Source: a virus
IMG/VR virus record: IMGVR_UViG_3300000226_000003
Coordinates: 1 to 40,272 of that record
DNA length: 40,272 nucleotides
Reading direction: 5' to 3' (one strand)
The translations under genes were made by a program, and so were the position numbers. The notes under the pieces were generated by a model. It did not search any database. It worked only from the letters and a program-made list of their open reading frames with translations, and was not told where the DNA came from. Positions 4,215-37,384 of the stretch are shown one piece after another (positions within the stretch are counted from its first letter, which is position 1; every line of letters begins with the position of its first letter).

Positions 4215-4487
4215 ATGGCTGGACACTTAAAAAATGCCGCAATCGCGGCAAATCGTAAATGTAATTTTTCTTATTACTGCTATCACGCATGGATAGCAAG
4301 TAGAGCAGGTGCTTTATTGGGTTATTTGTCAATCATGTCATTTGTTCATGCTTTTTTCCCATTCATATATGCTAAATTTGGATTAGCAAAATTAATTGTC
4401 CGTAATACTAACAATATACGCAGATCTATCCCAGATTGGGAAGGTTGGAAAGAGTTAGACAACTGGAATGACGAGAAATACAAATAA
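4215..4487 (+). CDS. Small membrane protein (DUF6356-like)
   Basis: A 90-aa protein with one or two hydrophobic segments (about residues 22-57) containing HAFFPFIYAKFG. This resembles a small family of membrane proteins with a conserved HAxFPF motif (DUF6356-like, from memory). The C-terminus is charged and Trp-rich (IPDWEGWKELDNW). GGGAGA lies 8 bases before the ATG. No late box is visible directly upstream, so it may be co-transcribed with the preceding gene. Function unknown. Confidence 0.65.
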   Translation: MAGHLKNAAIAANRKCNFSYYCYHAWIASRAGALLGYLSIMSFVHAFFPFIYAKFGLAKLIVRNTNNIRRSIPDWEGWKELDNWNDEKYK

Positions 4488-6994: not shown

Positions 6995-8068
6995 ATGAAA
7001 AAGTATTTATTAGTAATGGTACTTTGTATTATATGCTCGCCCAATATCTATGCATATGATACAAACTTTTCACTACACGGATCCCGTGCTAGTTTTCTAA
7101 TGATGGATAGTAAGTGGATGACACTTAACTATCTCCATCCAAACGCAAATAAAAATGGCATGAGAGCGGCCGCCAAAGCAAATGGCGACACCCACATTTA
7201 TCTGTATAGTCGTAATGCTGGAGACAATGGCGGCGGATTTAATTTAGGACAAATAAGTCCACAGGCAGATTGGGAAACACAACTAGATGTTCTAAACGCC
7301 TCAGGTTTAAAACCAGTTATGTGGTTAACCCCAGACGATAGCAGAGCGATTACTGTCCAATCTTTGGATGAACAAAAGGCGCATTTCAATGAAGTAGTGC
7401 GTAGGTTTGATAATAAGGTAACAGGATATGTCGCTTGTTTGGAATGCGATGAATATTGGTCTCCGGCAATGGTTAATGCGTTAGTTATACACTTAAAGTC
7501 AATTACTGATAAACCAGTTGGGGTTCATTTAACATCAGGCATTGGCGGCCACAAGGGCAAAAACGAGTATTATGCTAATGCAGATTATGTCTTCCTTCAA
7601 ACAGGATGGAATAAGACTCCCGCAGAAATTACTGCAATGGTTAAACAAGCAATGGCTGTTACAGGCAAACCTGTTGTTGCTTCTGAATATGCAACAGAAA
7701 GCAGAACAGCGGCCGCCAGAGCATTAGGTGATGCGGCGTGTCGTGCTGGTGCAATAGGCACAGGCAATGGCAGAAGTGTTACACTATGTGGATACGAAGC
7801 ACCACCGCCACCAAAGAAAAAATATGACAATTACTATTATGCAGTTGGAGCACTTGTTATAGTTGCTATAGCAACTTATGTTAATTATGATTATGATGCA
7901 ACTGGAATTGAACTTAGATTTGATGCAACAGATAATTATTCCAGGTTTGGTGTTAAAAAAACATTTCAATTAACTGAGCAGAGTTCATTTAGTCTAGAGG
8001 TAGAAAATTATGAACAAGATTACAATGATGATAACCGGCTTCTTGTTAGTTATCAGTTTAGTTGGTAA
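6995..8068 (+). CDS. Exported TIM-barrel (glycoside-hydrolase-like) protein with C-terminal membrane module
   Basis: Residues 1-20 form a Sec signal peptide ending in NIYA before YD. The body resembles a (beta/alpha)8 glycoside-hydrolase-type domain: DTHIYLYSRNAGDNGGG, then LKPVMWLTPDD, YVACLECDEYW (candidate catalytic acids) and TDKPVGVHLTSG. After a proline-rich linker (APPPPKKK) comes a hydrophobic segment (YYAVGALVIVAIATYV). A beta-rich tail follows and ends in YQFSW, a terminal aromatic as in outer-membrane strands. The protein is therefore probably sent to the periplasm or outer membrane of the infected cell. The substrate is unknown. Confidence 0.65.
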   Translation: MKKYLLVMVLCIICSPNIYAYDTNFSLHGSRASFLMMDSKWMTLNYLHPNANKNGMRAAAKANGDTHIYLYSRNAGDNGGGFNLGQISPQADWETQLDVLNASGLKPVMWLTPDDSRAITVQSLDEQKAHFNEVVRRFDNKVTGYVACLECDEYWSPAMVNALVIHLKSITDKPVGVHLTSGIGGHKGKNEYYANADYVFLQTGWNKTPAEITAMVKQAMAVTGKPVVASEYATESRTAAARALGDAACRAGAIGTGNGRSVTLCGYEAPPPPKKKYDNYYYAVGALVIVAIATYVNYDYDATGIELRFDATDNYSRFGVKKTFQLTEQSSFSLEVENYEQDYNDDNRLLVSYQFSW

Positions 8069-8080
8069 GGCACATTGTAG

Positions 8081-8109
8081 TTGACTTATTAATGTAATTA
8101 TGCTATAGT
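8081..8109 (+). promoter_or_regulatory. Sigma70-like promoter of the 8.1-10.8 kb cassette, leaderless
   Basis: TTGACT (8081-8086), a 17-base spacer and TATAGT (8104-8109). The ATG at 8116 is 6 bases after the -10 box, the same geometry as at 4524 and 34981. Confidence 0.65.
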
Positions 8110-8115
8110 AATACT

Positions 8116-8334
8116 ATGCAATATGAAATTAAATCCGGAAGAACTTTGTATATGACTAATGCAAGTTCTTCCATTCAAGCAGTTCAAAATTTTAAAGTAT
8201 CTGTTGGGAATTTACCCGTTGATTCAGTTCATTATATAGGAAATATTTCAGTATTAGATAATGTTATAAATAATTTTGAGAAGGAAAAAGAATCCTATTT
8301 CGATTACTGGACATTTAATAATGGCAAGCATTGA
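8116..8334 (+). CDS. Small protein, first gene of radical SAM/SET cassette
   Basis: Not recognised. The 72-aa protein has a Ser/Asn-rich N-terminal half (TNASSSIQAVQNF) and an acidic, aromatic C-terminal half (ESYFDYWTFNN). It overlaps the next gene by 14 bases and starts directly downstream of its promoter. Its size and position would suit a substrate or regulator of the enzymes that follow, but nothing in the sequence proves this. Confidence 0.6.
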   Translation: MQYEIKSGRTLYMTNASSSIQAVQNFKVSVGNLPVDSVHYIGNISVLDNVINNFEKEKESYFDYWTFNNGKH

Positions 8335-9376
8335 CATTAAAACTACTGTTGGCATTACACATATAGAATTACTAGACAATCCATTTGTTAAAAAATGGAC
8401 AGATCATTTCTGTAAAATGTTAGATAGTTATAGTATAAAATATACAGTTCCGCCCACTCCAGTATATGAGATTGAACCCAGATCAATTCCAGATACATTA
8501 CAAGATATACAAAATTTAAAAAATGAAATTTATTCAATTAATAATTTAATAACAGATGGAGCAAAATTCCCATTTGATCCAGAAAGAATAACTATTAATT
8601 CTATTCGTGATGATCATGATGAAGGACAGAAAATATTAAATGAAGTTCATCGTTATTTTACTACTGCTGGTAGATCGATGAATGAATTTAGAAATCAAGG
8701 CACACATACTCGAGGATTATGGTCAGATAGTTTCCCTTCAGAATTTTCATGGGATGTTTCTTATGAATCAGAATTTTTTCATTCTCATGCTTTAGTTAAT
8801 GATTACGTACATGCATTAGATAGATATCAAGCAACATCTAGAAAAAAACAAGGATATGATAAACAAGTAGTTAATCTTAGGTTTAGTTTTGATAATAAAA
8901 TAGGTGATTGTCGATTTGAAGAAGGAGCATTCCATCATATTTCATCACAGGATTATGCGTATGCTGATGATAATGAAGATCTTGATGTTTGGGTAAGTAA
9001 TGCCATATTAGGAAAAGATTATATAGAAGCATGGTATGATCAAGATGATCCTTCTCAATGGGATGTCACACCTATTAATGGGCATAGTGGATGTTTTAAA
9101 ATTAACGTATACAATCGTTGGCATTATCATAGAAGTGAAGAAGGTCGCTTGATACAACATTTAGTAAAAAGTAATGAGTTTCAAAATTGGTTAAAAGAAC
9201 ATAATGTTGAATACCATCCTTCTATGTGCGGTATGCCATTGGGTAAGGTAACACGTGGTAAAAATTTACTTAATTGGATGAAAATACCTCCACGAGATTG
9301 TCCATTATCTCCTTGGATTACAAATAATAATAATCAATGGATAAACAGATCTTTCGAGGTAATTTTAAATGTATAG
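8321..9376 (+). CDS. Novel family protein (HRYFTTA family), copy 1
   Basis: A 351-aa soluble protein of no family known to me, clearly paralogous to the protein at 26173-27132. Shared blocks are: (N/D)PFVxKW near the N-terminus, QKILNxxHRYFTTA in the middle, LGKDYI followed by DDPxxWD, and a C-terminal FQNWLKE then (S/A)MCG(M/I)PLGKV. Conserved His, Asp and Trp residues hint at an enzyme or metal site. It overlaps the gene before by 14 bases and the SET gene after by 8, so it is part of a coupled operon. Confidence 0.75.
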   Translation: MASIDIKTTVGITHIELLDNPFVKKWTDHFCKMLDSYSIKYTVPPTPVYEIEPRSIPDTLQDIQNLKNEIYSINNLITDGAKFPFDPERITINSIRDDHDEGQKILNEVHRYFTTAGRSMNEFRNQGTHTRGLWSDSFPSEFSWDVSYESEFFHSHALVNDYVHALDRYQATSRKKQGYDKQVVNLRFSFDNKIGDCRFEEGAFHHISSQDYAYADDNEDLDVWVSNAILGKDYIEAWYDQDDPSQWDVTPINGHSGCFKINVYNRWHYHRSEEGRLIQHLVKSNEFQNWLKEHNVEYHPSMCGMPLGKVTRGKNLLNWMKIPPRDCPLSPWITNNNNQWINRSFEVILNV

Positions 9377-9689
9377 ACCTTTACCAAATGGAATAACAAT
9401 AGGACAGTCCAAAATTGAAGGAATTGGTTTAATTGCAACCAGAAATTTTGATAAGGACATTGTATTGGGCATCGCTCATATTGCGAATAAGAATTTTCCA
9501 CATGGGTATATACGCACTGCATTAGGAGCTTTTTATAATCATAATAATAATCCAAATTGTAAAACAATGAATGGATTTTGGCATCAAATTCCTGTTAAGT
9601 ATCTCGTTACGATTAAAAAAATTCAACCTAATGATGAATTAACAGCAGAATATTCTTTATATGTAGTAGAGGAAGATAATTGGGAATGA
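9369..9689 (+). CDS. SET-domain protein (putative protein methyltransferase)
   Basis: A minimal 106-aa SET domain. Residues 12-33 (S-x-IEGIGLIATRNFDKD) match the N-terminal SET strands. NHNNNPNC (57-64) corresponds to the NHS/C SAM-binding motif, and DELTAEY (89-95) to the catalytic (G/D)EELTxxY motif with its Tyr. SET proteins methylate lysines with SAM; pre- and post-SET parts are absent. It lies between the novel-family gene (8-base overlap) and a radical SAM gene (ATGA overlap), suggesting shared work on one target. Confidence 0.8.
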   Translation: MYRPLPNGITIGQSKIEGIGLIATRNFDKDIVLGIAHIANKNFPHGYIRTALGAFYNHNNNPNCKTMNGFWHQIPVKYLVTIKKIQPNDELTAEYSLYVVEEDNWE

Positions 9690-10765
9690 ACATAATAGCT
9701 CTAAATAAAGAATTAAATATTGATGATTTAAATCAAACTACAGAAATAGAATTAACATTTGATAATATATGTAACTTATCTTGTAGTTATTGTGATAGTT
9801 CCAAAAGTTCATCATGGGCCCTTAATATAAATTTGAATGGTGCTTTTAATTTACAAACAAGTAATTTATATAATGAAGTTTTTGAGTTTGATGGGCGGTT
9901 AATTCAAAAAAACTTAATTAAATTTATTAGTTGGTGGCATAATAATAGTAATCAAGTAACAGTACTCAAGATAAATGGTGGTGAACCAATATTATCACAA
10001 TATTTTTGGAAATTCATTCATAATATTTCAAAATCCCCTAATCCAGAATTAAATTTAATTATTGTATCCAATTTAGTCTATGATCCTGGCCAGCTTGATA
10101 AGTTATATGATGTAAGTGATAAATTTAAATCTATACAAATAATAGCAAGTATAGATGTCAATAATGGTATTTGCGATTTTTTAAGAGCAGGCGGCGGTTA
10201 TTTAAGACAGAAAAATAATATTATGAGATCACTTGGTGCACCTATTAATTGTTTTCTTACATTGCAAAATGTTATTAGTGTATTTTCTGTTTGGTATTAT
10301 AGTTCATTTATAGAGTATAATATAGAATTAAGAAAACACAGTTCAACTTCAAGATTTGATAGTTTAGAAGCACTTTTAAATCCTAGTGAATGGTCACGCT
10401 TTGCAACGATCCCAGGCAATCTTAGACCTTTTAGTAGTATTATATTAACATCTCCGTCTTTTCAAAGTATATTAATGTTACCTACACATTTAAGAGAATA
10501 TTTGTATGAAGATATATTTACTACATATAGTTCTCTAAAAAGTGAGTTACATAAACCAGATAAAAATACCATTATTAGATGTTTAAATTATATCCAATCT
10601 GCTAAATTTCCAGATAATCTGGAATCAAATAGATTAAGTATGGAACGAGATCTTAAAAAATTTATAATCGAATATGAAAAAATAGTTCGTAATGACGATA
10701 AAGAATTCACATCAATATCTTCTATATTTCCTAAAGTATTTGTAGATTGGCTGGATACTATATAA
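9686..10765 (+). CDS. Radical SAM protein
   Basis: C29, C33 and C36 form the CxxxCxxC motif (CNLSCSYC) that binds the [4Fe-4S] cluster of radical SAM enzymes. INGGEP about residue 97 is the second signature (GGEP, SAM contact). At 359 aa it resembles SPASM/twitch-type peptide-modifying enzymes, but the C-terminal part lacks the multiple Cys of a SPASM domain. The ATG at 9686 overlaps the stop of the SET gene (ATGA); the TTG two codons earlier is not needed. It is the last gene of the cassette. Confidence 0.85.
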   Translation: MNIIALNKELNIDDLNQTTEIELTFDNICNLSCSYCDSSKSSSWALNINLNGAFNLQTSNLYNEVFEFDGRLIQKNLIKFISWWHNNSNQVTVLKINGGEPILSQYFWKFIHNISKSPNPELNLIIVSNLVYDPGQLDKLYDVSDKFKSIQIIASIDVNNGICDFLRAGGGYLRQKNNIMRSLGAPINCFLTLQNVISVFSVWYYSSFIEYNIELRKHSSTSRFDSLEALLNPSEWSRFATIPGNLRPFSSIILTSPSFQSILMLPTHLREYLYEDIFTTYSSLKSELHKPDKNTIIRCLNYIQSAKFPDNLESNRLSMERDLKKFIIEYEKIVRNDDKEFTSISSIFPKVFVDWLDTI

Positions 10766-14308: not shown

Positions 14309-16249
14309 ATGGTAAGCAAATTACTTAAAGAGTATTCTTCTAACTATCAAAGTAAAAAAGAGATAGAAATAACATTAGAAGAATATTTAACATTATGTAA
14401 GAAAGATCCATTGGCTTATGCTACATCTGCTGAACGCATGTTAGCAGCTATCGGAGACCCAGAACACGTCGATACTTCAGAAGATTCAAGATTGTCTCGT
14501 ATATTCTTGAATAGAACATTAAGAGTTTTCCCAGCATTTAAAGATTTTTATGGATTAGAAGATACAGTTGAACGAATTGTAGGCTTCTTTAAACACGCCG
14601 CGCAAGGATTGGAAGAACGCAAACAAATATTATATTTGCTTGGTCCAGTAGGTGGCGGCAAGAGTTCTTTAGCAGAACGACTAAAAGAACTAATGGAAAC
14701 ATATCCAATATATGTTCTTAAAGCAGGCGATACAATTAGTCCTGTGTATGAAAGTCCGTTATCATTATTTGATCCAGAAGTATATGGTGACCAACTTGAA
14801 AAAGAATATAAAGTGCCAAAACGTTATCTCACCGGCTTGTTAAGTCCGTGGGCAATTAAACGTTTGGACGAATTTGACGGAGATATTACTAAATTTTCCG
14901 TAGTTAAATTACAGCCTAGCAAATTAAAGCAAATTGCTGTAGTAAAAACAGAACCAGGTGATGAAAATAACCAAGATATAAGTGCTCTAGTAGGCAAAAC
15001 AGACATTCGCCAATTAGAATACTTTTCACAACATGATCCAGATTCATATGCATTTAGTGGTGCATTGTGTAAGGGCAACCAAGGCCTTATGGAGTTTGTA
15101 GAAATGTTTAAAGCACCAATTAAAGTGCTACATCCACTATTAACTGCTACACAAGAAGGCAACTACATGGGCACAGAAGGTATTAGTGCTATCCCATTTA
15201 GTGGCACAATTTTAGCACATAGTAATGAATCAGAATGGACATCATTTAAAAACAACAAAAATAACGAAGCGTTTTTAGATCGTGTATATGTTGTTAAAGT
15301 TCCTTATTGTTTGCGTATAGATGAGGAAATTAAGATTTATGATAAGATGCTAACATCTAGTGGATTAGCAAATCATGCGTGTGCCCCACAAACACTAGAT
15401 ATGTTAGGACAGTTTTCAATTTTAAGCAGATTACTTGAGCATGAAAACAGCAATTTGTTTTCCAAAATGCAAGTGTATAATGGTAAGAACTTAAAGGATA
15501 CGGATCCGCAAGCAAAGAGTCTACAGGAGTATAAAGATACTGCTGGAGTAGACGAAGGCATGTCAGGTTCATCGACACGTTTTGCTTTTAAGATTTTATC
15601 TCAGACATTCAACTTTGACACAGCGGAGATAGCCGCTGATCCAGTACATCTAATGTTTGTATTGGAACAAGCGATAAAACGCGAGCAATTTGGTGAGGAA
15701 AAAGAAAAAGCACTCATTTATTATATTAAAGAGTGGCTCTCGCCAAAGTATGCTGATTTTATCGGCAATGAAATACAGAAAGCATATTTAGAAAGTTATA
15801 GTGATTATGGACAAAACTTGTTTGATCGTTATATTCAATATGCTGACCATTGGATACAAGAGATAGATTTTAAGGATCCTGATACAGGCAACCTCTTTAA
15901 TCGTGACGTATTAAACGACGAACTAGAGAAAATAGAAAAGCCAGCAGGCATTGCTAACCCTAAAGACTTCCGTAGTGAAGTAGTCAACTTTGTTCTACGC
16001 GCTAAAGCAAAGAACAAAGGTAAAAATCCAAAATGGTCAAGTTACGAGAAACTACGTGAAATTATAGAGAAGAAAATGTTTGCGTCTACAGAGGAATTAC
16101 TTCCAATTATTTCCTTTGGTAATAAGCAAAATAAAGATGATCAACAAAAGCATGACGATTTTGTAGAGCGTATGGAGTCAAAAGGCTATACAGAACGTCA
16201 AGTGCGCCGCCTCGTGGAGTGGTTTATGCGGACCCAGAAGTCAAGTTAA
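14309..16249 (+). CDS. prkA: PrkA-family AAA+ serine kinase/protease-like protein
   Basis: The 646-aa length matches cellular PrkA (about 640 aa). GPVGGGKSS (112-120) is the Walker A motif, and the PrkA-type AAA+ core runs to about residue 400. Typical PrkA blocks are the arginine-finger region (NNKNNEAFLDRVYVVKVPY) and SGSSTRFAFKILSQTFN. The C-terminal segment is the PrkA kinase-like domain. Cellular PrkA (YeaG) works with YeaH and YcgB in starvation and stationary-phase responses; Bacillus PrkA has been described as a Lon-like protease. The same three genes follow one another here, with a homing gene between the first two. Confidence 0.92.
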   Translation: MVSKLLKEYSSNYQSKKEIEITLEEYLTLCKKDPLAYATSAERMLAAIGDPEHVDTSEDSRLSRIFLNRTLRVFPAFKDFYGLEDTVERIVGFFKHAAQGLEERKQILYLLGPVGGGKSSLAERLKELMETYPIYVLKAGDTISPVYESPLSLFDPEVYGDQLEKEYKVPKRYLTGLLSPWAIKRLDEFDGDITKFSVVKLQPSKLKQIAVVKTEPGDENNQDISALVGKTDIRQLEYFSQHDPDSYAFSGALCKGNQGLMEFVEMFKAPIKVLHPLLTATQEGNYMGTEGISAIPFSGTILAHSNESEWTSFKNNKNNEAFLDRVYVVKVPYCLRIDEEIKIYDKMLTSSGLANHACAPQTLDMLGQFSILSRLLEHENSNLFSKMQVYNGKNLKDTDPQAKSLQEYKDTAGVDEGMSGSSTRFAFKILSQTFNFDTAEIAADPVHLMFVLEQAIKREQFGEEKEKALIYYIKEWLSPKYADFIGNEIQKAYLESYSDYGQNLFDRYIQYADHWIQEIDFKDPDTGNLFNRDVLNDELEKIEKPAGIANPKDFRSEVVNFVLRAKAKNKGKNPKWSSYEKLREIIEKKMFASTEELLPIISFGNKQNKDDQQKHDDFVERMESKGYTERQVRRLVEWFMRTQKSS

Positions 16250-16265
16250 GTATTATAATGCGAGT

Positions 16266-16271
16266 TAAATA
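16266..16271 (+). promoter_or_regulatory. Late promoter box TAAATA of homing endonuclease
   Basis: TAAATA followed by 5 bases and the ATG at 16277, with no ribosome site between. The box gives the homing gene its own leaderless late transcript inside the prkA operon. Confidence 0.6.
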
Positions 16272-16276
16272 CTATC

Positions 16277-16798
16277 ATGCATAAACATCATATTATACCA
16301 AAACATATGGGTGGCACTGATGATTCCTCTAATATAGTTAAGCTGTCTGTGGAAGATCATTCACTTGCTCATAAAGCACTATATGAACAACACGGCCACT
16401 GGGAAGATAAACTTGCTTGGCGGGCGTTATCTGGTATTATTGCTAAAGAAGACGTTATACTTGAGCTACAACGCGAAGCAGGGCGTAGAGTAAAATCCCC
16501 TGAAGAGCGAGCAAAGTTAAGTAAAAGTTTAACGGGCAGAACAGCATCTTTAGAGCATAGGGCAAATATAAGTAAAGGCTTGAGACTCAAGCATAGCCTA
16601 CGCCCAACATCTGCTGAAACAAAAGCAAAGATGGTAAAGGCTCATACTGGATATAAACACACACCCGAAACAAAAGAAAAGCTCAGCCTAATTGCTTCAA
16701 AAAGAATACCATCAGAATCAACTAAGAAAAAAATCAGTGAATCAATGAAAGCCTATAGAAAATCGCAACGAGATGATTCATGCCCAAGCATATTATAG
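16277..16798 (+). CDS. HNH homing endonuclease with NUMOD3-type repeats
   Basis: The 173-aa protein opens with HKHHIIPKHMGGTDDSSN followed by HSLAHKALYEQHG, the classic HNH fold of free-standing phage homing nucleases. The C-terminal half has three or four short basic repeats of the NUMOD3 type (SPEERAKLSKSLTG, SAETKAKMVKAHTG, STKKKISESMK) that bind DNA. It lies between prkA and the DUF444 gene, whose start overlaps its last 19 bases. It is a mobile gene that cuts uninvaded DNA and spreads by repair. Confidence 0.88.
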   Translation: MHKHHIIPKHMGGTDDSSNIVKLSVEDHSLAHKALYEQHGHWEDKLAWRALSGIIAKEDVILELQREAGRRVKSPEERAKLSKSLTGRTASLEHRANISKGLRLKHSLRPTSAETKAKMVKAHTGYKHTPETKEKLSLIASKRIPSESTKKKISESMKAYRKSQRDDSCPSIL

Positions 16799-18165
16799 AT
16801 AGGCGGCAGAATCCTAAAGGTAAAAACTTATCTAATAGACAGAGATTCATAAAACGCTCTAAAAAGCATCTTAAAGAGAGCATGGATGAAGCCATGAAGA
16901 CTCGTTCTGTAAAGGATTTAAAGTCTGGCAGCCGTGTTCGTGTGCCTTCCAAAAGTATTAAAGAGCCACAGTTTAATTATGATCCTAAATCAGGACAGAA
17001 AGATTATATACTGCCAGGTAATCAAGAATACTTACAAGGTGATAAAATACGTAAACCATCCTCTGGGCAAGGCGGTAGCGGCGGCCAAGAAGGATCTGAT
17101 GATGCGTATGGGGAAGACGATTTTGTTTTTTCTATTAGTAGAGATGAATTTCTAGACATATTATTTGAGGATTTGGAACTACCAAACCTCAAAGAAAAGA
17201 AAAAGAAAAGTATAGAGGAGTTTACTACTCGTCGTTCTGGCTATGTTAATGAGGGTTCTCCTAATAATTTAAATCTTGAGCAAAGTATGATACGCAGTAT
17301 TGGTAGACGTATTGCTCTTAAAAAACCTAAAGGAAAACGTATAAAGGAACTTGAAAAACGATTAGAAGAACTTATAGAGGAAAGAAAACCGCTTGTTGCT
17401 ATTATAGAGAAGTATTCTTTTAATAAACAGGCAAGATGTAAAGAAGCATCTTTATTAAAAGAAATTGATGATGAGATTGTAGAGATAGAGGCAGAGATTA
17501 AAAAAATAAGAGCACGTTATAATGCTATCTCTTTTATTGACCCAATTGACTTAAAATTTAATAACTTTACTAAAGTTCCAAATCCTAAAAATGCCGCTGT
17601 TATGTTTTGTATATTGGATGTATCAATATCGATGCAAGAGCGTGAGAAAGATTTAGCAAAACGCTTCTTTATTTTATTACACTTGTTTCTTAGTATGAAG
17701 TATGATTTAGTAGAAGTAGTGTTTATACGACACCACACAACTGCTAAAGAATGCACAGAGGAAGAATTTTTTACTAGTAAAGAAAGTGGCGGTACTGTAG
17801 TATCTACTGCACTAGATTTAGCATATGATATTATTAGAAAGAGATATGATTTGGAATATTGGAATGTTTATGTAAGTCAAGCAAGTGATGGTGATAACTT
17901 TACTACTGATAATCAGCAAGTACATAATACTATGGAAACTAAATTATTACCATTAGTTCAGTTTTTTGCGTATGTTAGTATTGTAACACATCAACACCAA
18001 GTCAATAATGATATAGGTTTATCTGTAGGAAGTGGTTTAGAAAAAATATATAAAGTATTAATGGATGCTTTTGAGTATGTGCAAATACGTAGAGTGTATG
18101 AACCAAAAGATATATATCCTGTGTTTAGAAAATTCTTTGCGCCGAAAGGAGAAAATGATGAGTAA
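16780..18165 (+). CDS. yeaH: DUF444 / YeaH-YhbH family protein
   Basis: The 461-aa protein starts with IIDRRQNPKGKNLSNRQRFIKR, the typical DUF444 beginning. It has the Gly-rich acidic linker (SSGQGGSGGQEGSDDAYGEDDF), a charged coiled coil at about 190-240, and a von Willebrand A-like domain with DVSISMQEREK near residue 285. Cellular YeaH partners with PrkA (YeaG) and SpoVR (YcgB). The start lies within the 3' end of the homing gene, so the mobile gene now supplies its upstream sequence. SpoVR begins inside its last codons. Confidence 0.92.
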   Translation: MPKHIIDRRQNPKGKNLSNRQRFIKRSKKHLKESMDEAMKTRSVKDLKSGSRVRVPSKSIKEPQFNYDPKSGQKDYILPGNQEYLQGDKIRKPSSGQGGSGGQEGSDDAYGEDDFVFSISRDEFLDILFEDLELPNLKEKKKKSIEEFTTRRSGYVNEGSPNNLNLEQSMIRSIGRRIALKKPKGKRIKELEKRLEELIEERKPLVAIIEKYSFNKQARCKEASLLKEIDDEIVEIEAEIKKIRARYNAISFIDPIDLKFNNFTKVPNPKNAAVMFCILDVSISMQEREKDLAKRFFILLHLFLSMKYDLVEVVFIRHHTTAKECTEEEFFTSKESGGTVVSTALDLAYDIIRKRYDLEYWNVYVSQASDGDNFTTDNQQVHNTMETKLLPLVQFFAYVSIVTHQHQVNNDIGLSVGSGLEKIYKVLMDAFEYVQIRRVYEPKDIYPVFRKFFAPKGENDE

Positions 18166-19801
18166 ACCTTTATATGAACCAAAAAGTGACTGGAGTTTTG
18201 ATCTTATTTCTAAAATATATGATGCGTGTGAAGAAATAGCAATTAATGAACTTGGTTGTGATTGTTATATTAACCAATTAGAAGTAGTAACATTTGAACA
18301 AATGTTAGATGCTTATGCTAGTATTGGTATGCCGTTATCTTATAATCACTGGAGTAATGGTAAAGCATGGGCACATTATGAGAACCAATATAGAAAAGGT
18401 AGAACAAGTTTAGCATATGAGTTGGTTATTAATAGTAATCCTTGTATTAATTATTTGATGGAAGAAAACTCGATGACTACACAAACGTTAGTCATTGCAC
18501 ATGCCGCGTTTGGACATAATCATTTCTTTAAGAATAATTATTTGTTTAAAACATGGACAAGTGCTGACAGTATTATTGACTATCTATTATTTGCTAAAAA
18601 TTATATACAAAAGTGTGAGGAAAAGTATGGACTTGATGAAGTAGAACTTTTCTTAGATTCCCTACATGCAATACGCAATTACGGAATAAACAAATATAAA
18701 CGTCCTGACAAATTAAATGTCACCGTAGAAGCAGAGAAAGCACAAGAACGAGCAACATATTTACGTAAACAAGTAAATGAACTATGGGATACTACAGTTA
18801 TTCCAAATAAAAAAAATACAGAAGAAAAAGAACAAAGAGTTAGTATGGCAAAGCCGGAAGAAAATATAATTTACTTTTTAGAAAAACATGCTCCTAATTT
18901 AACTGATTGGCAACGCGAATTATGCCGCATAGTGCGTAAAATTGCTCAATATTTTTATCCACAAGGGCAAACAAAAGTAATGAACGAGGGATTTGCTTGT
19001 TTTGTGCATTATTACTCAATGAATAGATTGCATGAGAAAGGATTAATTACTGATGCGGCAATGTTTGAGTTTTTAAGATTACATACTAATGTATTAAATC
19101 AACCAACATTTGATAAAAAATGGTATAATGGTATGAATCCTTATTCACTAGGTTTTGCTATGTTTATGGATATTAAACGTATGTGCGAACATCCGACAGC
19201 AGAAGATAAGGAATGGTTTCCTGATATTGCTGGTGGTGATTGGAAAGAAATTATTTTAGATGCTGTTGCTAATTACAGAGATGAAAGTTTTATACTGCAA
19301 TTTCTATCACCTAAAGTAATTAGAGATTTTAGATTATTCCAACTCGGGGATAACAAGTCAGATCCACATTATAAGGTTAAAGCAATTCATAATGATAAAG
19401 GATATAAAAGTATACGCAAAGAGATGGCACGTCAGTATGATTATAATTATCGTATACCTGATATACAAGTTGTTGATTATGATCATGATGAGAAGCGTTC
19501 ATTACTATTGCATCATTATAAAGGACCAAGTCAAAGAGAGTTGTCAAAGGACACAACAATTGAAGTATTAAATTATATTGCTTACATTTGGGGTTATGAG
19601 ATACAATTAGATGTATATAGTAAGCAAGAAAAATTTATTGATGGTGAGTCAGTAGGTGATCCATTTCAGAAAGTAAATGGATATAAATCTACTTCTACTG
19701 ACGGGACATCGCCACCACCAGAAAAAGTTCCTGCAAAGAATTTTGGTTACTGGGGAATGTGTTTAACATCAGACAACTCTGAAACCATTGACAAATCATA
19801 A
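18158..19801 (+). CDS. spoVR: SpoVR / YcgB family protein
   Basis: The 547-aa protein aligns by eye with SpoVR over its whole length: SDWSFDLISKIYDACEEIA at the start, PLSYNHWSNGKAWAHYE, the histidine-rich AHAAFGHNHFFKNNYLF, NEGFACFVHYY, and NPYSLGFAMF later. AAAGGAG (18145-18151) places the start at 18158, or the ATG just before it at 18155. It overlaps the DUF444 stop. SpoVR is linked to Bacillus spore cortex formation and, in Gram-negatives, to the PrkA stress module. The last 30 residues are Pro/Ser-rich. Confidence 0.92.
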   Translation: MSKPLYEPKSDWSFDLISKIYDACEEIAINELGCDCYINQLEVVTFEQMLDAYASIGMPLSYNHWSNGKAWAHYENQYRKGRTSLAYELVINSNPCINYLMEENSMTTQTLVIAHAAFGHNHFFKNNYLFKTWTSADSIIDYLLFAKNYIQKCEEKYGLDEVELFLDSLHAIRNYGINKYKRPDKLNVTVEAEKAQERATYLRKQVNELWDTTVIPNKKNTEEKEQRVSMAKPEENIIYFLEKHAPNLTDWQRELCRIVRKIAQYFYPQGQTKVMNEGFACFVHYYSMNRLHEKGLITDAAMFEFLRLHTNVLNQPTFDKKWYNGMNPYSLGFAMFMDIKRMCEHPTAEDKEWFPDIAGGDWKEIILDAVANYRDESFILQFLSPKVIRDFRLFQLGDNKSDPHYKVKAIHNDKGYKSIRKEMARQYDYNYRIPDIQVVDYDHDEKRSLLLHHYKGPSQRELSKDTTIEVLNYIAYIWGYEIQLDVYSKQEKFIDGESVGDPFQKVNGYKSTSTDGTSPPPEKVPAKNFGYWGMCLTSDNSETIDKS

Positions 19802-19859: not shown

Positions 19860-21959
19860 TTGTCTTTAAACAATTATAGAAACATTGGTATCTTCGCACA
19901 TGTGGACGCGGGTAAAACTACGACTACTGAGAGGATCCTTAAGCTCACAGGAAAGATACACAAAATTGGTGAGGTACATGATGGCGCCGCAACCACAGAC
20001 TTTATGGAGCAAGAGCAAGAGCGAGGCATTACAATACAAAGTGCCGCGACTACTTGCTACTGGAAAGACCACCAATTAAACATCATCGACACCCCTGGGC
20101 ATGTAGACTTCACTATTGAAGTCTATCGTTCCCTTAAGGTGTTGGATGGTGGCGTTGGTGTATTTTGTGCAAGCGGTGGCGTAGAGCCACAATCCGAAAC
20201 TAACTGGCGTTATGCTAACGACAGCGAAGTAGCACGTATTATATACATTAACAAGATGGATAGAGTAGGTGCTGATTTTAATCGTGTTGTAGCACAAATA
20301 AGAACACGACTTGGTGCGAAGCCGTTAATTATGACATATCCAATTGGAGCGGAAGATAAATTCGTAGGTGTAGTTGATATACTTACTCAAAAGGCTTGGA
20401 TATGGTCAGATTCTACTGACCCAACTTCTTACACTATAACTGACATCCCAGATGATAAAGTACCTAGTGAGAAAATAGGTGACAAGTATACATATAAAGA
20501 AATGGCAAAACAACATTATGATATATTAGTTGAGACAGTTGTTGAGCAAGACGATGAAGTTATGATGCAATGGATAGATGATCCAGATAGCATTAGTGAA
20601 GAAGATCTTAAAATGTGTATACGTAAAGGTACTAATACTTGTGAGTTCTTTCCAACGTATTGCGGCAGTTCATTTAAAAACAAAGGCGTACAAAACATAT
20701 TAAATGCTATTGTAGATTATTTGCCCAATCCTACCGAAGTTGACCCACAACCAATAGTAGATGACACTGGTGTAGAAACAGGTGAAGTTGCTACGGTAGA
20801 TGCAGAAGGGCCGTTGCGGGCACTTGCATTTAAGATTATGGAAGACAAATATGGCGCACTAACATTTACACGCATTTATTCAGGCAACATGAAGAAAGGT
20901 GACTCCATATACAATAGTACAAATGGTAAAACAGAACGTGTTGGGCGTATATTGGAAATGCATGCCGACTCGCGTGAGGAATTGGACAGTGCATCAGCAG
21001 GTGACATTGTTGCATTGCTTGGTATGAAGTCTGTACAAACAGGCCATACATTGTGTGATAAAAAGAACCAAGCAATACTTGAACCAATGGTATTCCCAGA
21101 TCCAGTTATTAGCATAGCAATTGAACCAAAGACACAAAGTGATATGGACAAGTTAGGAACTGCTATTGGTAAAATGGTAGCAGAGGATCCTTCCTTCCAT
21201 GTAGAGACAGACCAAGAAACTGGCCAAACAATACTTAAAGGCATGGGCGAGTTGCATTTAGATGTTAAGTGCGATATACTAAAACGCACATACGGTGTGG
21301 AAGTAAGCATAGGTAAACCACAAGTAGCATATAGGGAAACAATTACTAAAACAGTCAGTGATAGGTATACCCATAAAAAGCAAACAGGTGGTGCAGGCCA
21401 GTTTGCTGATATTGAATATACTGTAGAACCTCTTGAAGCAGGAGAGGGATTCCAATTTGAAAGCAAGGTAGTTGGCGGCAATGTTCCAAGAGAGTTTTGG
21501 ACTTCTATAGAGAAGGGATTTGCAGGCTCCAGTGCAGATGGTATACTTGCAAGTTACCCAGTGCTTGATTACAAAGTAACATTAACAGATGGTTCCAGTC
21601 ACGCAGTAGATAGTAGTGCTGTGGCATTTGAGCTGGCGGCTCGCGGAGCATTTAGACAAACAATGCCCAAAGCAGGTCCGAAGTTATTAGAGCCAATTAT
21701 GAAACTAGACGTTACTTGCCCCGGAGACAAAGTAGGTGATGTTATAGGTGATATAAATAGGCGTAGAGGCATGATACACAATCAAGAAATGGCTGGCACA
21801 ACGGTTCGTATATACGCAGAAGCACCAATTGGTGAAATGTTTGGGTATATAGGAGACTTACGCAGTCAAACAAGTGGTCGTGGTCAATTTAGTATGGAAT
21901 TTAGTCATTATGCGCCGTGTCCTAATAGCATTACTGAGGTTATCTTAAAGAAAACTTAA
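19860..21959 (+). CDS. fusA: Translation elongation factor G (phage-encoded, full length)
   Basis: The 699-aa protein has every EF-G hallmark: P-loop AHVDAGKT (13-20), switch I RGITI (55-59), DTPGHVDF (77-84) and NKMD (131-134). [12 protein letters not shown] is the domain IV loop, [11 protein letters not shown] carries the His at the tip of domain IV that enters the ribosomal A site, and domain V has RRRGMI and SMEFSHY. EF-G moves tRNA and mRNA through the ribosome and helps recycle ribosomes. The start is TTG, set by a GTGGAG site. There is no sign of decay, so it is probably functional. It directly follows the PrkA trio but has its own late promoter. Confidence 0.95.
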
Positions 21960-22907: not shown

Positions 22908-23432
22908 ATGAACGTCAAAATTAGCTTATCTGGCTTCTTTTGTAATACATGGCCAGATTGTGTTGTAGTTTGTAATGGTCATACAATATTCCAGGATAAA
23001 ATTATCAATGATAATATAATAGATTTTACTATTGATTTTTCTGCTGACAATTTATTAACAATAGGTATGACTAATAAGTTAATGGGTGAAAATAGTGTAT
23101 ATGATATTTTGTTAGATGCACATAATAATATTATCGAGGACAAGTATATTAAAGTAAATGATATACTTTTTGATGATGTTAGCGTGGATAACTTAATACA
23201 TGAATTTGTTTTTATTAAAGATTCTAATGAAAAAATATCAACATCTGGTAATATTAATTATAATGGTAGTATACATATCCCATTTCAACAACCAATTTAT
23301 GATTGGTTAATACAAGAAAAATATATTAAAAAAGAAATACAAGAAACTAATTATCAAGGTTTTGGTAGTTGGAATAATAAATTTAATTATGATGTACAGG
23401 ATTTAATTAAAAAGTTAGAAACAATTGTATGA
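22908..23432 (+). CDS. Beta-rich hypothetical protein paired with radical SAM gene
   Basis: The 174-aa protein is probably a beta sandwich in its first two thirds: alternating strands around KISLSGFFCN, NLLTIGMTNKLMG, and DKYIKVNDILFDDVSVD. The pattern (I/L)TIGMxNK ... DKxIxVxxIxxDDVxV recalls a carbohydrate-binding-like fold. The C-terminal third is polar. Its stop overlaps the ATG of the B12-type radical SAM gene (ATGA), so the two are translated together from one late promoter. Confidence 0.6.
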   Translation: MNVKISLSGFFCNTWPDCVVVCNGHTIFQDKIINDNIIDFTIDFSADNLLTIGMTNKLMGENSVYDILLDAHNNIIEDKYIKVNDILFDDVSVDNLIHEFVFIKDSNEKISTSGNINYNGSIHIPFQQPIYDWLIQEKYIKKEIQETNYQGFGSWNNKFNYDVQDLIKKLETIV

Positions 23433-24802
23433 AGATTGCACTTGTACAACTCCCCAAATATTCTATAGATAGACCCCCTATGACACTTGCTGTTTTAACC
23501 AGTGTTATTAAAAATAATTTTGATTATGATATTGAGTGCTATGATTTATCATTAAAACTTTATCAAGATATTGAAAGAGAAGATTTCTATGAGATTGAAG
23601 ACTATTTAGAACATAATATATATAAATCTTCTGTAGATATATTGACAGATAACTTTTCTATATATGCTATAGAGATAAAAAATTGTGATTTAATAGCAAT
23701 AAGTGTTTTTAGTGATGCATCATGTCGAGCATGTGAAGTGCTGTGTAAGGAATTAAAAAAGTATAATTGCAAAATTGTTATTGGTGGACAAGGTTTGGCT
23801 AACGAAAACTGGTGTAAAAATATGTCTGATGCCAAGTTAATAGATGATTATATAGTAGGGGAAGGAGAATATACATTTGTAAATTATTTAAATGGTTTAC
23901 AAGGACCTGGTATAAACAATCATAATAATGAACAAATAGATGATTTAGATTTATTGCCTATTCCTGATTATAGTTTATTAAATTTGAATGATTATAATCT
24001 TAAGGAATTATATGTTACTGGTTCTCGTGGATGTGTACGCAAATGTACTTACTGTGATGTTCCTTTTTTATGGAAAAAATATAGATATCGCTCTGGCCAA
24101 CATATTGCTAATGAGTTAATACGACATTATGAGAAAAGTGGTATTACTGGCTTCTGGTTTACTGATAGTTTGGTCAATGGCAGTCTTAAACATTTTAGAG
24201 AATTTTGCTATGCTTTAGAGAAATACTATGAAAATAATAACGTAAGATTTACTTGGAAGGGACAGTATATTTTTAGACGTATGAATCAGTTAAATGAAGA
24301 ATATTTTAGAATGATATCAGCAGCTGGTGGTAGTGAATTTTATGTAGGATTAGAAACTGGTAGTGACAAAATACGTTGGGAAATGGATAAAAAATTTACT
24401 AATGAAGATGCAACCTATCATTTAGAGATGTTTAAAAAATATAAAATAACTTGTTTATTGCTTATGATTAGTGGTTATATAACAGAAACAAATCAAGATC
24501 ATTTAGATACAATGGCTATGTTTAAAAAATGGCAGAAATTTGTTGCATCAGGAACAATTACTGGCATAGAGTTAGGCAATACGTTAAGTATACTAGAAAA
24601 TACTCCTTTAGAAGAAGAAAATTTAGAGTTTGTTATACCAGGTGACAAGCATAGTTGGCACATTAAAGATAATACATATCAAGTACGTGTTAGAAATAGG
24701 TTAGAAATAACTAAAGAAGCGATGAAGTATCATTGGCCAATTACCAATAATCGTTTTAGATTAAAAACCTTTATTGCTAAATTAGAGCAATATTATATAT
24801 AA
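23429..24802 (+). CDS. B12-binding-type radical SAM protein
   Basis: The 457-aa protein has an N-terminal cobalamin-binding-like Rossmann domain (IALVQLPK, LIAISVFSDAS, CKIVIGGQG, DYIVGEGEYTF). A radical SAM core follows with C202, C206 and C209 in GCVRKCTYCD. The typical EFYVGLETGSDKIRWEM and KYKITCLLLMISGY come next. Such enzymes methylate or rearrange unreactive carbons. The DxHxxG cobalamin motif is not evident, so B12 itself may not bind. It is coupled to the beta-rich gene upstream. Confidence 0.85.
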   Translation: MKIALVQLPKYSIDRPPMTLAVLTSVIKNNFDYDIECYDLSLKLYQDIEREDFYEIEDYLEHNIYKSSVDILTDNFSIYAIEIKNCDLIAISVFSDASCRACEVLCKELKKYNCKIVIGGQGLANENWCKNMSDAKLIDDYIVGEGEYTFVNYLNGLQGPGINNHNNEQIDDLDLLPIPDYSLLNLNDYNLKELYVTGSRGCVRKCTYCDVPFLWKKYRYRSGQHIANELIRHYEKSGITGFWFTDSLVNGSLKHFREFCYALEKYYENNNVRFTWKGQYIFRRMNQLNEEYFRMISAAGGSEFYVGLETGSDKIRWEMDKKFTNEDATYHLEMFKKYKITCLLLMISGYITETNQDHLDTMAMFKKWQKFVASGTITGIELGNTLSILENTPLEEENLEFVIPGDKHSWHIKDNTYQVRVRNRLEITKEAMKYHWPITNNRFRLKTFIAKLEQYYI

Positions 24803-25788: not shown

Positions 25789-26133
25789 ATGCGTTACACT
25801 GAACTAAATGAAAGCGGCTCCATACACTGGGAAGATGAGAAATTTGATGCAGATAATCCAACTGTATTAATACGCGGGTATGGTACACTAACCTATAAAA
25901 CTCTCCAACAAGCGATCGCTAGAGATTTAGCAGAGATGTCCCAGCGGGTGGCAGATGGTAGTTTAGAAGTTGTAGCAAATCACCAATTATTTGATAGTAA
26001 AAGCGCATTCAATGGCAAAGTTCAAGCATATTTAGATGTTACTAAAGAACTAGCAAAGCCAACAATCAAGCGAAAACTCACACTTCACAAGAAAAATAGT
26101 CTATTTAATACCATAAAAAATAGTGATCAATAA
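25789..26133 (+). CDS. Hypothetical protein, 114 aa, possible packaged protein
   Basis: Not recognised. The N-terminus MRYTELNESGS contains LNE before Ser and loosely resembles the capsid-targeting/processing peptides of the three other candidates in this window, so capsid entry is possible but weakly supported. The rest is a helical, charged domain (YKTLQQAIARDLAEMSQRVA) with a basic tail. The start is given by the late box spacing. Confidence 0.6.
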   Translation: MRYTELNESGSIHWEDEKFDADNPTVLIRGYGTLTYKTLQQAIARDLAEMSQRVADGSLEVVANHQLFDSKSAFNGKVQAYLDVTKELAKPTIKRKLTLHKKNSLFNTIKNSDQ

Positions 26134-26172: not shown

Positions 26173-27132
26173 ATGTCATATTTAATATTTCATAATGATA
26201 ATATTAATTTTTTTACAATACAATTGCGGGAAGATCCATTTGTTGAAAAATGGGCAAATCATCTTCAATATATTTTAGATAATTATAATTGTCGCTTATA
26301 CAAATCAAAATATCCAAGATATGAAAAATTAGAAGAAAATGAAATTAAACAACATGTAGATAATCTACACACCGCTATTAGAAATCTAAATAATTTAGGC
26401 ACTTGTTTTCCATTATTAAGAATAGATATTCCTTATATACGATTTTTAACTTTAGACTTAGATACACAGAAAATTTTAAATAAGTTACATAGATATTTTA
26501 CTACTGCTAATTGTTCTCTTAATGACATTGGTGATCAAGTAACTTATTCATATAAAGATAATAATTATTTTACAATTGATTATACCAAAAAAGAAGAATT
26601 TCGTAAACTCATACAAGACATAAATCAAATAGTACACAATTTAGATAATTCTATATTGTTGCCTAGAGTACGTGATGCAATAGACAATGATGAATTAATA
26701 GAACAAGTAACAATAATGTTTGATCTATATGGAACAAGAGAACATAGTTTATTACCTAATACATTTAAGTTTATGGATAAAGAGGATGAATCAAGTATAA
26801 TAGATAATGATGAATATGATGTGTGGATGGGAGTAGATTTGTTAGGTAAAGATTATATTACAGGATATTATAATCATGATGATCCGACAGAATGGGATAT
26901 TAAAACATTAAATTGCTATACAGGTAAGATGGAAATAATATTGGGGTCAAATACTATTCCTAAAATAATTAAAGGAGATAAGTTTCAAAATTGGTTGAAA
27001 GAATATGGTATGACATATATTCCAGCAATGTGTGGCATACCATTAGGTAAGGTAATATCTGGTAAAGATCTTCTAAACGATAAAACTTTACAACAACAGA
27101 TGTCAGTGTTTAATATTAAAATAGAGGAATAA
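26173..27132 (+). CDS. Novel family protein (HRYFTTA family), copy 2
   Basis: The 319-aa protein is a paralogue of the one at 8321-9376. It shares EDPFVEKWANH near the N-terminus, QKILNKLHRYFTTA, LGKDYI followed by HDDPTEWD, FQNWLKE and AMCGIPLGKV. It lacks about 30 residues of the longer copy. Both copies are under leaderless sigma70-like promoters, suggesting early expression. Its stop overlaps the next ATG (TAATG). No known family comes to mind. Confidence 0.75.
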   Translation: MSYLIFHNDNINFFTIQLREDPFVEKWANHLQYILDNYNCRLYKSKYPRYEKLEENEIKQHVDNLHTAIRNLNNLGTCFPLLRIDIPYIRFLTLDLDTQKILNKLHRYFTTANCSLNDIGDQVTYSYKDNNYFTIDYTKKEEFRKLIQDINQIVHNLDNSILLPRVRDAIDNDELIEQVTIMFDLYGTREHSLLPNTFKFMDKEDESSIIDNDEYDVWMGVDLLGKDYITGYYNHDDPTEWDIKTLNCYTGKMEIILGSNTIPKIIKGDKFQNWLKEYGMTYIPAMCGIPLGKVISGKDLLNDKTLQQQMSVFNIKIEE

Positions 27133-27743
27133 TGCAAATGTTTATCAGTTTCACAATTCATGGTTACGGTGGAGAAGTTGTTCTCGGTAAAATATCTAAA
27201 AAGGCGGCTGAATTTTGGCAATCTGAAGAAATGCAAGAATACTTGCATGGTTATGTTTTTAGTCCAGAATGGTTTGAAGAAGAAAACCCAAACATCAAAA
27301 TACCCAAGTATGCCCAAATAGGTGTGTGGCATGATATGGAAGATCGCGGGCACGAGTGGGGAGCGGCACAAGGCGGTGCGTATCTTACTATAAATGAAGT
27401 GAGCGATGATGCATGGGATGCTAATCATGTACGCGACATTTTTTATGGTGAATTAATGGATTATGTGAATGAACACGAAGTAGAAATTCATTCTGATGAA
27501 CAACATCCTAAACCAAAAGAATATACATTCTGTGGTGTTAACTCTGAGAAAGGTACATTTTACGACGGCACTATAGAAATTGAAGGAGACTTTGATCCTA
27601 AAAAAGTCTCTTTTGGTAGCACAGAAATCCATCAAGATACTCTTATTACACAAATTTTTTATGGTGATGAAACCATAGATAATTCTGGTGGAGGTACTGA
27701 TGGCAAAGCCATGGATTTTGAAATTATAGAGCCGTGGGAGTAA
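27132..27743 (+). CDS. Hypothetical phage protein, 203 aa
   Basis: The N-terminus FISFTIHGYGGEVVLGKISKKAAEFW looks like a conserved protein I associate with marine T4-like phages; I know no function for it. The product is acidic and Trp-rich, probably alpha/beta with a beta-rich C-terminal half. A GAGGAAT site precedes the ATG, which overlaps the stop of the novel-family gene, so the two are co-translated. Confidence 0.65.
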   Translation: MQMFISFTIHGYGGEVVLGKISKKAAEFWQSEEMQEYLHGYVFSPEWFEEENPNIKIPKYAQIGVWHDMEDRGHEWGAAQGGAYLTINEVSDDAWDANHVRDIFYGELMDYVNEHEVEIHSDEQHPKPKEYTFCGVNSEKGTFYDGTIEIEGDFDPKKVSFGSTEIHQDTLITQIFYGDETIDNSGGGTDGKAMDFEIIEPWE

Positions 27744-36433: not shown

Positions 36434-37384
36434 ATGAAACTTATTTCAGGTAACTCGAACCTGGAGTTGGCAAAACGAATATCCCAGTTTGCCGGTGTAC
36501 CGCTAGTTAAGGCAAACATAGGGAGGTTTGCCGACGGCGAGGTTAGAGCAGAAATTCACGAAAACATCAGAGGTAAAGACGCATTCGTAATACAAAGTAC
36601 TAGCACCCCAGTTAATGATAATGTAATGGAATTATTAGTTATGATTGACGCGCTCAAAAGAGCAAGTGCAAGGCGCATAACAGCAGTAATGCCATATTTT
36701 GGTTACGCGAGGCAAGACAGAAAAACAATGAGTAGAGCACCAATTAGTGCAAAACTCATGGCAGATTTAATAACAACGGCAGGCGCAGATCGTGTATTAA
36801 CACTCGATCTACACGCAGGTCAAATCCAAGGATTTTTTAATATCCCAGTAGACACTTTGATAGCACGACCTATCCTAGTCAATGATTTGCGGAAAAGAAT
36901 AGATACAGAGAATCTTGTATTTGTCAGTCCAGACGCTGGCGGTACAGAACGAGCAAGAAGTTATGCTAAGAAGTTTGATACAGAGATTGCTGTAATCGAT
37001 AAAAGACGCCCAGAACCGGGCGCAAGTGAGGTTATGAATGTTGTTGGTGACGTTAAGGATAAACAATGTATTATTGTTGACGACATCATAGACAGTGGAG
37101 GCACTCTAGCCAACGCGGCCACGGCTTTGTTGGAACAAGGTGCTATTAAAGTAAGAGCATATATTACGCACGGAGTACTGACGCCTAAGGCAGATGAAAA
37201 AATTGGTAATAGCGATTTAACTGAATTGATAGTAACAGATTCCATTAAAATTAGTAGGGAATCTAGTATAGCCCAACTCAGGTATGTAACAATTGCTCCA
37301 CTAATTGGACGAGCGATAGTAAATGTTCATAATGAAGAAAGTGTAAGTAATCTACTTATAGAGGATAATTGGGATATATTATGA
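36434..37384 (+). CDS. prs: Ribose-phosphate pyrophosphokinase (PRPP synthetase)
   Basis: The 316-aa length equals that of bacterial enzymes. ATP- and ribose-phosphate-binding segments are present: FADGE (32-36), YFGYARQDR (88-96), VLTLDLHAGQIQGFF (121-135) and the PRPP loop VDDIIDSGGT (215-224). It makes PRPP from ribose-5-phosphate and ATP for nucleotide and NAD synthesis. The catalytic motifs are intact. No partner nicotinamide gene (nadV) is in this window. Its stop overlaps the start of the lipoprotein gene (ATGA). Confidence 0.95.
   Translation: MKLISGNSNLELAKRISQFAGVPLVKANIGRFADGEVRAEIHENIRGKDAFVIQSTSTPVNDNVMELLVMIDALKRASARRITAVMPYFGYARQDRKTMSRAPISAKLMADLITTAGADRVLTLDLHAGQIQGFFNIPVDTLIARPILVNDLRKRIDTENLVFVSPDAGGTERARSYAKKFDTEIAVIDKRRPEPGASEVMNVVGDVKDKQCIIVDDIIDSGGTLANAATALLEQGAIKVRAYITHGVLTPKADEKIGNSDLTELIVTDSIKISRESSIAQLRYVTIAPLIGRAIVNVHNEESVSNLLIEDNWDIL

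Follow-up and report, generated by a model that had tools for sequence, protein, structure and literature searches.

A cluster of four tightly overlapping open reading frames, all on the plus strand and with products of 72, 351, 106 and 359 amino acids, lies in a 40,272-nucleotide stretch of viral DNA (IMG/VR record IMGVR_UViG_3300000226_000003), here called the window (Table 1). The overlaps of 14, 8 and 4 bases given in the initial annotation agree exactly with the coordinates. A single ATG start per gene fits all four frames; those of the second and fourth genes lie at 8321 and 9686, and the TTG starts listed at 8276 and 9680 extend the same frames upstream. In order, the genes encode a small protein, a protein for which we coin the name NFP ('novel family' protein), a stand-alone SET-domain methyltransferase and a radical SAM protein. 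The region is identical in three other metagenome contigs, and the window matches a viral contig of 322,647 bases, which makes it a piece of a large phage.

Table 1. Features of the four-gene locus, with related loci
Feature	Position	Strand	Basis or remark
Sigma-70-like promoter, TTGACT-17-TATAGT, TG 5' of the -10 hexamer	8081-8109	+	Sequence; hexamers kept in sister phage L007
Small protein, 72 aa	8116-8334	+	Open reading frame; present in the window phage and L007
NFP, 351 aa	8321-9376	+	Diverged branch within a family common in marine phages
SET-domain methyltransferase, stand-alone, 106 aa	9369-9689	+	Pfam PF00856, E=2.5e-8
SET GxG motif, residues 18-20	9420-9428	+	Both glycines invariant, 49 distinct phage SETs
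SET NHxxxPNC motif, residues 57-64	9537-9560	+	Fixed positions 98-100% conserved, 49 phage SETs
SET ELTAxYxLY motif, residues 90-98	9636-9662	+	Fixed positions 98-100% conserved, 49 phage SETs
Radical SAM protein, 359 aa, N_Twi-like core	9686-10765	+	NF033640, E=6e-38, below its curated cut-off
Radical SAM CX3CX2C motif	9770-9793	+	Sequence
Radical SAM GGEP motif	9977-9988	+	Sequence
NFP copy 2	26173-27132	+	36-38% identical to copy 1; no SET or twitch radical SAM gene alongside
Pelagibacteraceae SET loci	L238-L292, SET at ~5001 in most		55 genomes

The promoter ends 6 bases 5' of the ATG at 8116, so that a leaderless transcript is plausible. Promoter-like matches in the region are not enriched over shuffled sequence (28 versus 29.2). 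The hexamers (TTGACT/TTGACA and TATAGT) and their spacing are shared with a sister phage, L007, in which the DNA further upstream has diverged. Both this conservation and the short distance to the ATG agree with the leaderless host-type promoter proposed in the initial annotation. That the four genes are made together, as was also proposed, stands in a weaker form: the overlaps and the promoter make a single transcript likely, and co-expression would follow from it.

In L007, a 158-kb contig, the genes for the small protein, NFP and SET follow one another as in the window, and their products are 72%, 55% and 69% identical, respectively, to those of the window. Against L007, dN/dS is 0.52 for the small protein, 0.50 for NFP and 0.14 for SET, compared with 0.06-0.09 for three other nearby genes. 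Values below one imply that these three genes are real, and the ratios of about 0.5 indicate that the small and NFP proteins evolve faster than their neighbours. L007 has no radical SAM gene: the gap runs exactly from the SET stop to the radical SAM stop, and homology restarts at TAATACG, which in the window opens with the radical SAM stop codon. Such a restart points to a clean gain in the window phage or a clean loss in L007, a comparison that draws on these two phage lineages. The block of small, NFP and SET genes is carried by the same two lineages only, and is linked in both. Homologues of the small protein were found only in the window phage and L007, and none of the first 1800 of 2088 small open reading frames of the two phages is a remote homologue. 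L007 also has a tandem pair of related genes with signal-peptide-like starts (L007:5603-7760), for which the window has a single counterpart at 6995-8068.

The SET protein scores 34.7 bits against Pfam PF00856, above the curated cut-off of 22.4, and its core motifs are conserved at 95-100% overall among 49 distinct phage SETs; most motif positions are retained in SAR11 relatives too. Among solved structures its profile matches protein-lysine methyltransferases, the nearest being KMT2D/KMT2C and the viral vSET (1n3j), and these relatives favour a protein target. Like the window protein, vSET (chlorovirus PBCV-1 A612L, PDB 1n3j) is a small viral single-domain SET protein; both have the GxG, NH..PN and catalytic tyrosine motifs, and the profile match is almost full-length. 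Unlike vSET, the window protein belongs to a phage of a bacterial host, where eukaryotic histones are not available as a target, and it has a phage-specific stretch, HIANKNFPHGxIRTALGAFYNH.

A scan of viral contigs recovered SET relatives in at least 224, and the neighbourhoods were compared in 79 of the best 80 of these. The gene occurs in ten or more arrangements, mostly without the small, NFP or radical SAM genes, and no constant partner was seen across the 79 loci; by sequence reading, the contexts include DNA-ligase-, exonuclease-, ribonucleotide-reductase-, epimerase- and tail-fibre-like genes. An NFP-family gene lies near SET in 17 of the 79, directly adjacent only in the window phage and L007 and three genes away in two T4-like contigs (L104 and L113); it was not seen in the other 62 within the stretch examined around each. 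Five cultured phage species, with identities of ~31-39%, carry members of the same family (phrog_28741), hypothetical where annotated: Prochlorococcus phages P-SSM7 and P-RSM6, Pelagibacter phage Kolga, Pseudoalteromonas phage PH1 and Rhodoferax phage P26218. In contrast to the window, the records of two of these phages have neither an NFP nor a radical SAM gene annotated alongside. The P-SSM7 gene is one small gene 3' of nrdA and nrdB. Literature searches on phage SET proteins found no description. Separate origins of the window and L007 SETs, toward which the tree leans, were not adopted, as a common origin is not rejected (p-AU 0.40).

The radical SAM protein matches the N_Twi_rSAM profile (NF033640) with 130.9 bits, under the curated cut-off of 170, over profile positions 107-392, the N-terminal part being unmatched. 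The radical SAM core and C-terminal half can be aligned with that family, CX3CX2C and GGEP motifs included. Both domain calls of the initial annotation are thus upheld, the second at a score below its family cut-off, as is its description of intact active-site motifs in the two enzymes. No cysteine was found upstream of the SAM motif in the window enzyme, compared with four to seven in all other intact paralogues checked in the two phages; the sole other paralogue with none is a fragment cut by a stretch boundary. As judged from these residues, the window enzyme differs from N_Twi_rSAM in having no N-terminal cysteine (twitch) domain, and we infer that the domain was lost.

Genes of this kind are multiplied in the 322-kb phage, which has 16 N_Twi matches, 11 of them above cut-off; seven twitch radical SAM matches are clustered at L042:3586-14767 (~143.7-154.7 kb of the contig). 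Matches above cut-off also occur in five of eight other phages searched, with 6-22 matches in each; among the eight, P-SSM7 and HTVC008M gave no match and Atu_ph07 one weak match. Multiplied radical SAM genes have been described in marine T4-like phages, of which TARA_ERS488813_N000010 resembles the 322-kb phage in this respect, with 12 such genes; the passages on them mention neither SET nor NFP genes (PMC5332604). In a tree, the window enzyme groups, weakly supported, with paralogues of its own phage and its relatives, on a long branch with a placement support of 82/70. A protein search of 50,697 named phages with the window enzyme returned nothing. In a few T4-like contigs (L077, L096, L100 and L102) an N_Twi radical SAM gene adjoins SET; a single lineage for all SET-adjacent radical SAM proteins was not seen in the tree, which places the enzymes of these contigs in another clade than the weakly placed window enzyme.

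These results bear on the initial annotation's proposal that the four genes co-occur and that SET and the radical SAM enzyme are partners on one target. A dedicated system of this kind, in which SET and then the radical SAM protein would act on one substrate, possibly NFP or the small protein, accords with the overlapping genes, the single promoter and the two intact sets of active-site motifs, and SET and N_Twi genes are also neighbours in the four contigs just named. However, L007 has the first three genes without the fourth, SET is found in many contexts and usually has no radical SAM neighbour, the enzymes adjacent to it in other phages are of a different clade, and the small protein is known from two phages only. 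The proposed co-occurrence is therefore not borne out and the partnership not supported, and we consider the dedicated system very improbable. Independent scatter of the homologues had been named beforehand as the finding that would count against the proposal; scatter of this kind was largely found for SET and N_Twi, while the small, NFP and SET genes still stand together in both phages. A four-part system is unlikely, and the adjacency of SET and N_Twi genes in the four contigs may represent a weak functional link.

The SET gene was also found at 56 loci in bacterial genomes, 55 in Pelagibacteraceae and one in a contig of a Methylophilaceae bin (L237), and the closest cellular relatives found are the Pelagibacteraceae proteins. 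In 43 of the 55 an alanine-dehydrogenase-like gene immediately precedes SET, and a dimethylglycine-dehydrogenase-like gene often follows it. BurB shows that a SET-fold enzyme can act as a methionine S-methyltransferase (PMC12542666), so a small-molecule substrate is conceivable. SET would then methylate an amino acid or osmolyte in the manner of BurB and be an auxiliary metabolic gene that the phage shares with SAR11 hosts, a reading that the dehydrogenase-like neighbours and the precedent of BurB would suit. On the other hand, those neighbours were named by sequence reading and not by profile search, the structure profile search leads to protein-lysine methyltransferases, and none of the 60 PDB matches listed for the SET profile (A11) bears the name BurB. 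We consider a small-molecule substrate a lesser but appreciable possibility; it concerns the substrate only, and is compatible with an accessory operon. The SET of L237 is 79% identical to that of the window, and L237 looks like phage DNA by gene content: several of its genes are phage-like, and one of these resembles the window gene at 4215-4487. This gives a hint of a possible host of the window phage.

For NFP, the initial annotation had spoken of an undescribed family, which is confirmed: the window protein has no Pfam or PHROG match, and its only NCBIfam match is weak (E=0.078, below cut-off). Queried with NFP copy 1, NFP copy 2 and three T4-like relatives, a set of 50,697 named phages gave no protein match. 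Alignment-to-sequence comparison with 1178 open reading frames of related phages yielded full-length candidates of ~388 aa and a 290-aa branch. The window profile (A3) matches the 290-aa branch (A9) with a probability of 96.4% (E 1.2e-9), though the match is confined to residues 14-176, and the 388-aa branch (A8) matches the 290-aa branch with 94.1%; directly, the window profile and the 388-aa branch match weakly (8.7%). The 388-aa branch, which is absent from Pfam and PHROGs, was found in 551 or more contigs of marine viruses. It is followed by a conserved ~231-aa gene in 79 of 79 loci analysed and preceded by a ~149-aa gene in 71 of them, which read as glycosyltransferase-like and QueD-like, respectively. 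These comparisons indicate that NFP is a large phage-only family, not previously named.

Conserved NFP residues are N107, H110, F113, N160, H164, D211, G231-K232 and G308, and the N..H..F, N...H, D, GK and G are invariant in an alignment (A10) of 45 sequences that includes the window copies. AlphaFold2 modelled the 290-aa relative with a pLDDT of 89.6 and a pTM of 0.87 from 45 alignment rows. The model of the window protein itself, built from three sequences, is poor (pLDDT 39), so its fold is taken from that of the relative. In the model, the conserved Asn and His residues lie on two neighbouring helices, where they might bind a ligand or metal. A Foldseek search of the 290-aa model against the PDB gave nothing below E 0.001 (best 0.23), and against BFVD it gave ten uncharacterised phage proteins. 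Those sharing the predicted fold of the T4-like relative, the protein compared in place of that of the window, include A0A6J5LZ15 (Caudovirales; E 9.5e-23) and A0A2L0UZJ4 of Agrobacterium phage Atu_ph07 (E 5.5e-10). Atu_ph07, proposed as an NFP carrier from this fold search, was not retained, a sequence-profile search of that phage having found nothing. No Pfam match was obtained for the two genes that flank NFP copy 2 in the window (25789-26133 and 27132-27743).

A three-gene unit of small protein, NFP and SET is possible. The three genes are together in both phages, a high dN/dS is common to the first two, and the NFP-family genes of L104 and L113 are not far from SET; but the block is known from two lineages only, NFP copy 2 has no SET, and most SET loci show no NFP-family gene. 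On this view, methylation of NFP or the small protein by SET would tune a rapidly evolving pair that interacts with the host, and the radical SAM protein would be incidental; we regard this as unlikely. It is improbable, too, that the three genes form an undescribed phage protein-methylation module, with NFP or an NFP-bound host partner as the target of SET and the twitch-less radical SAM protein as an optional second modifier. In this reading NFP would represent a new fold family that is common in marine phages.

The locus probably represents a set of accessory genes that move independently and have been assembled into one operon in a large marine tailed phage. One leaderless promoter would drive this operon, with translation passing through the overlapping starts and stops. 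SET would be a stand-alone SAM-dependent methyltransferase, most likely acting on protein lysine, although BurB, as a SET-fold enzyme of a small molecule, keeps this from being assured. Its many contexts without a constant partner suggest that its substrate is encoded elsewhere, by phage or host. The radical SAM gene would have been added at the SET stop codon, later than the other genes or as a dispensable part, and its product would be an N_Twi enzyme that, having lost the auxiliary-cluster domain, would be limited to single-cluster radical chemistry, in a reaction presumably independent of the other operon products. The small protein and NFP would be a fast-evolving pair. The SET family is spread through marine phages and also present in SAR11 bacteria, yet its members carry only the label 'hypothetical' in those records of cultured phages that were found. 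The NFP family combines its abundance with a confident predicted fold of a relative that matches no solved structure. Each would offer a testable handle on the effects of abundant ocean phages on their hosts.

Several other genes of the window are of note. Genes for a PrkA kinase and a DUF444 (YeaH-like) protein and a third gene read as SpoVR-like are consecutive at 14309-19801, a set familiar from bacteria. The jumbo phage RsoM2USA is likewise listed with genes for PrkA and SpoVR (PMC8504454). A phage-encoded elongation factor G with the full domain set is found at 19860-21959, and a B12-binding radical SAM protein at 22908-24802, its gene overlapped on the 5' side by that of a 174-aa protein with no significant family match. 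Finally, a ribose-phosphate pyrophosphokinase gene (36434-37384) is situated amid phage tRNA genes.
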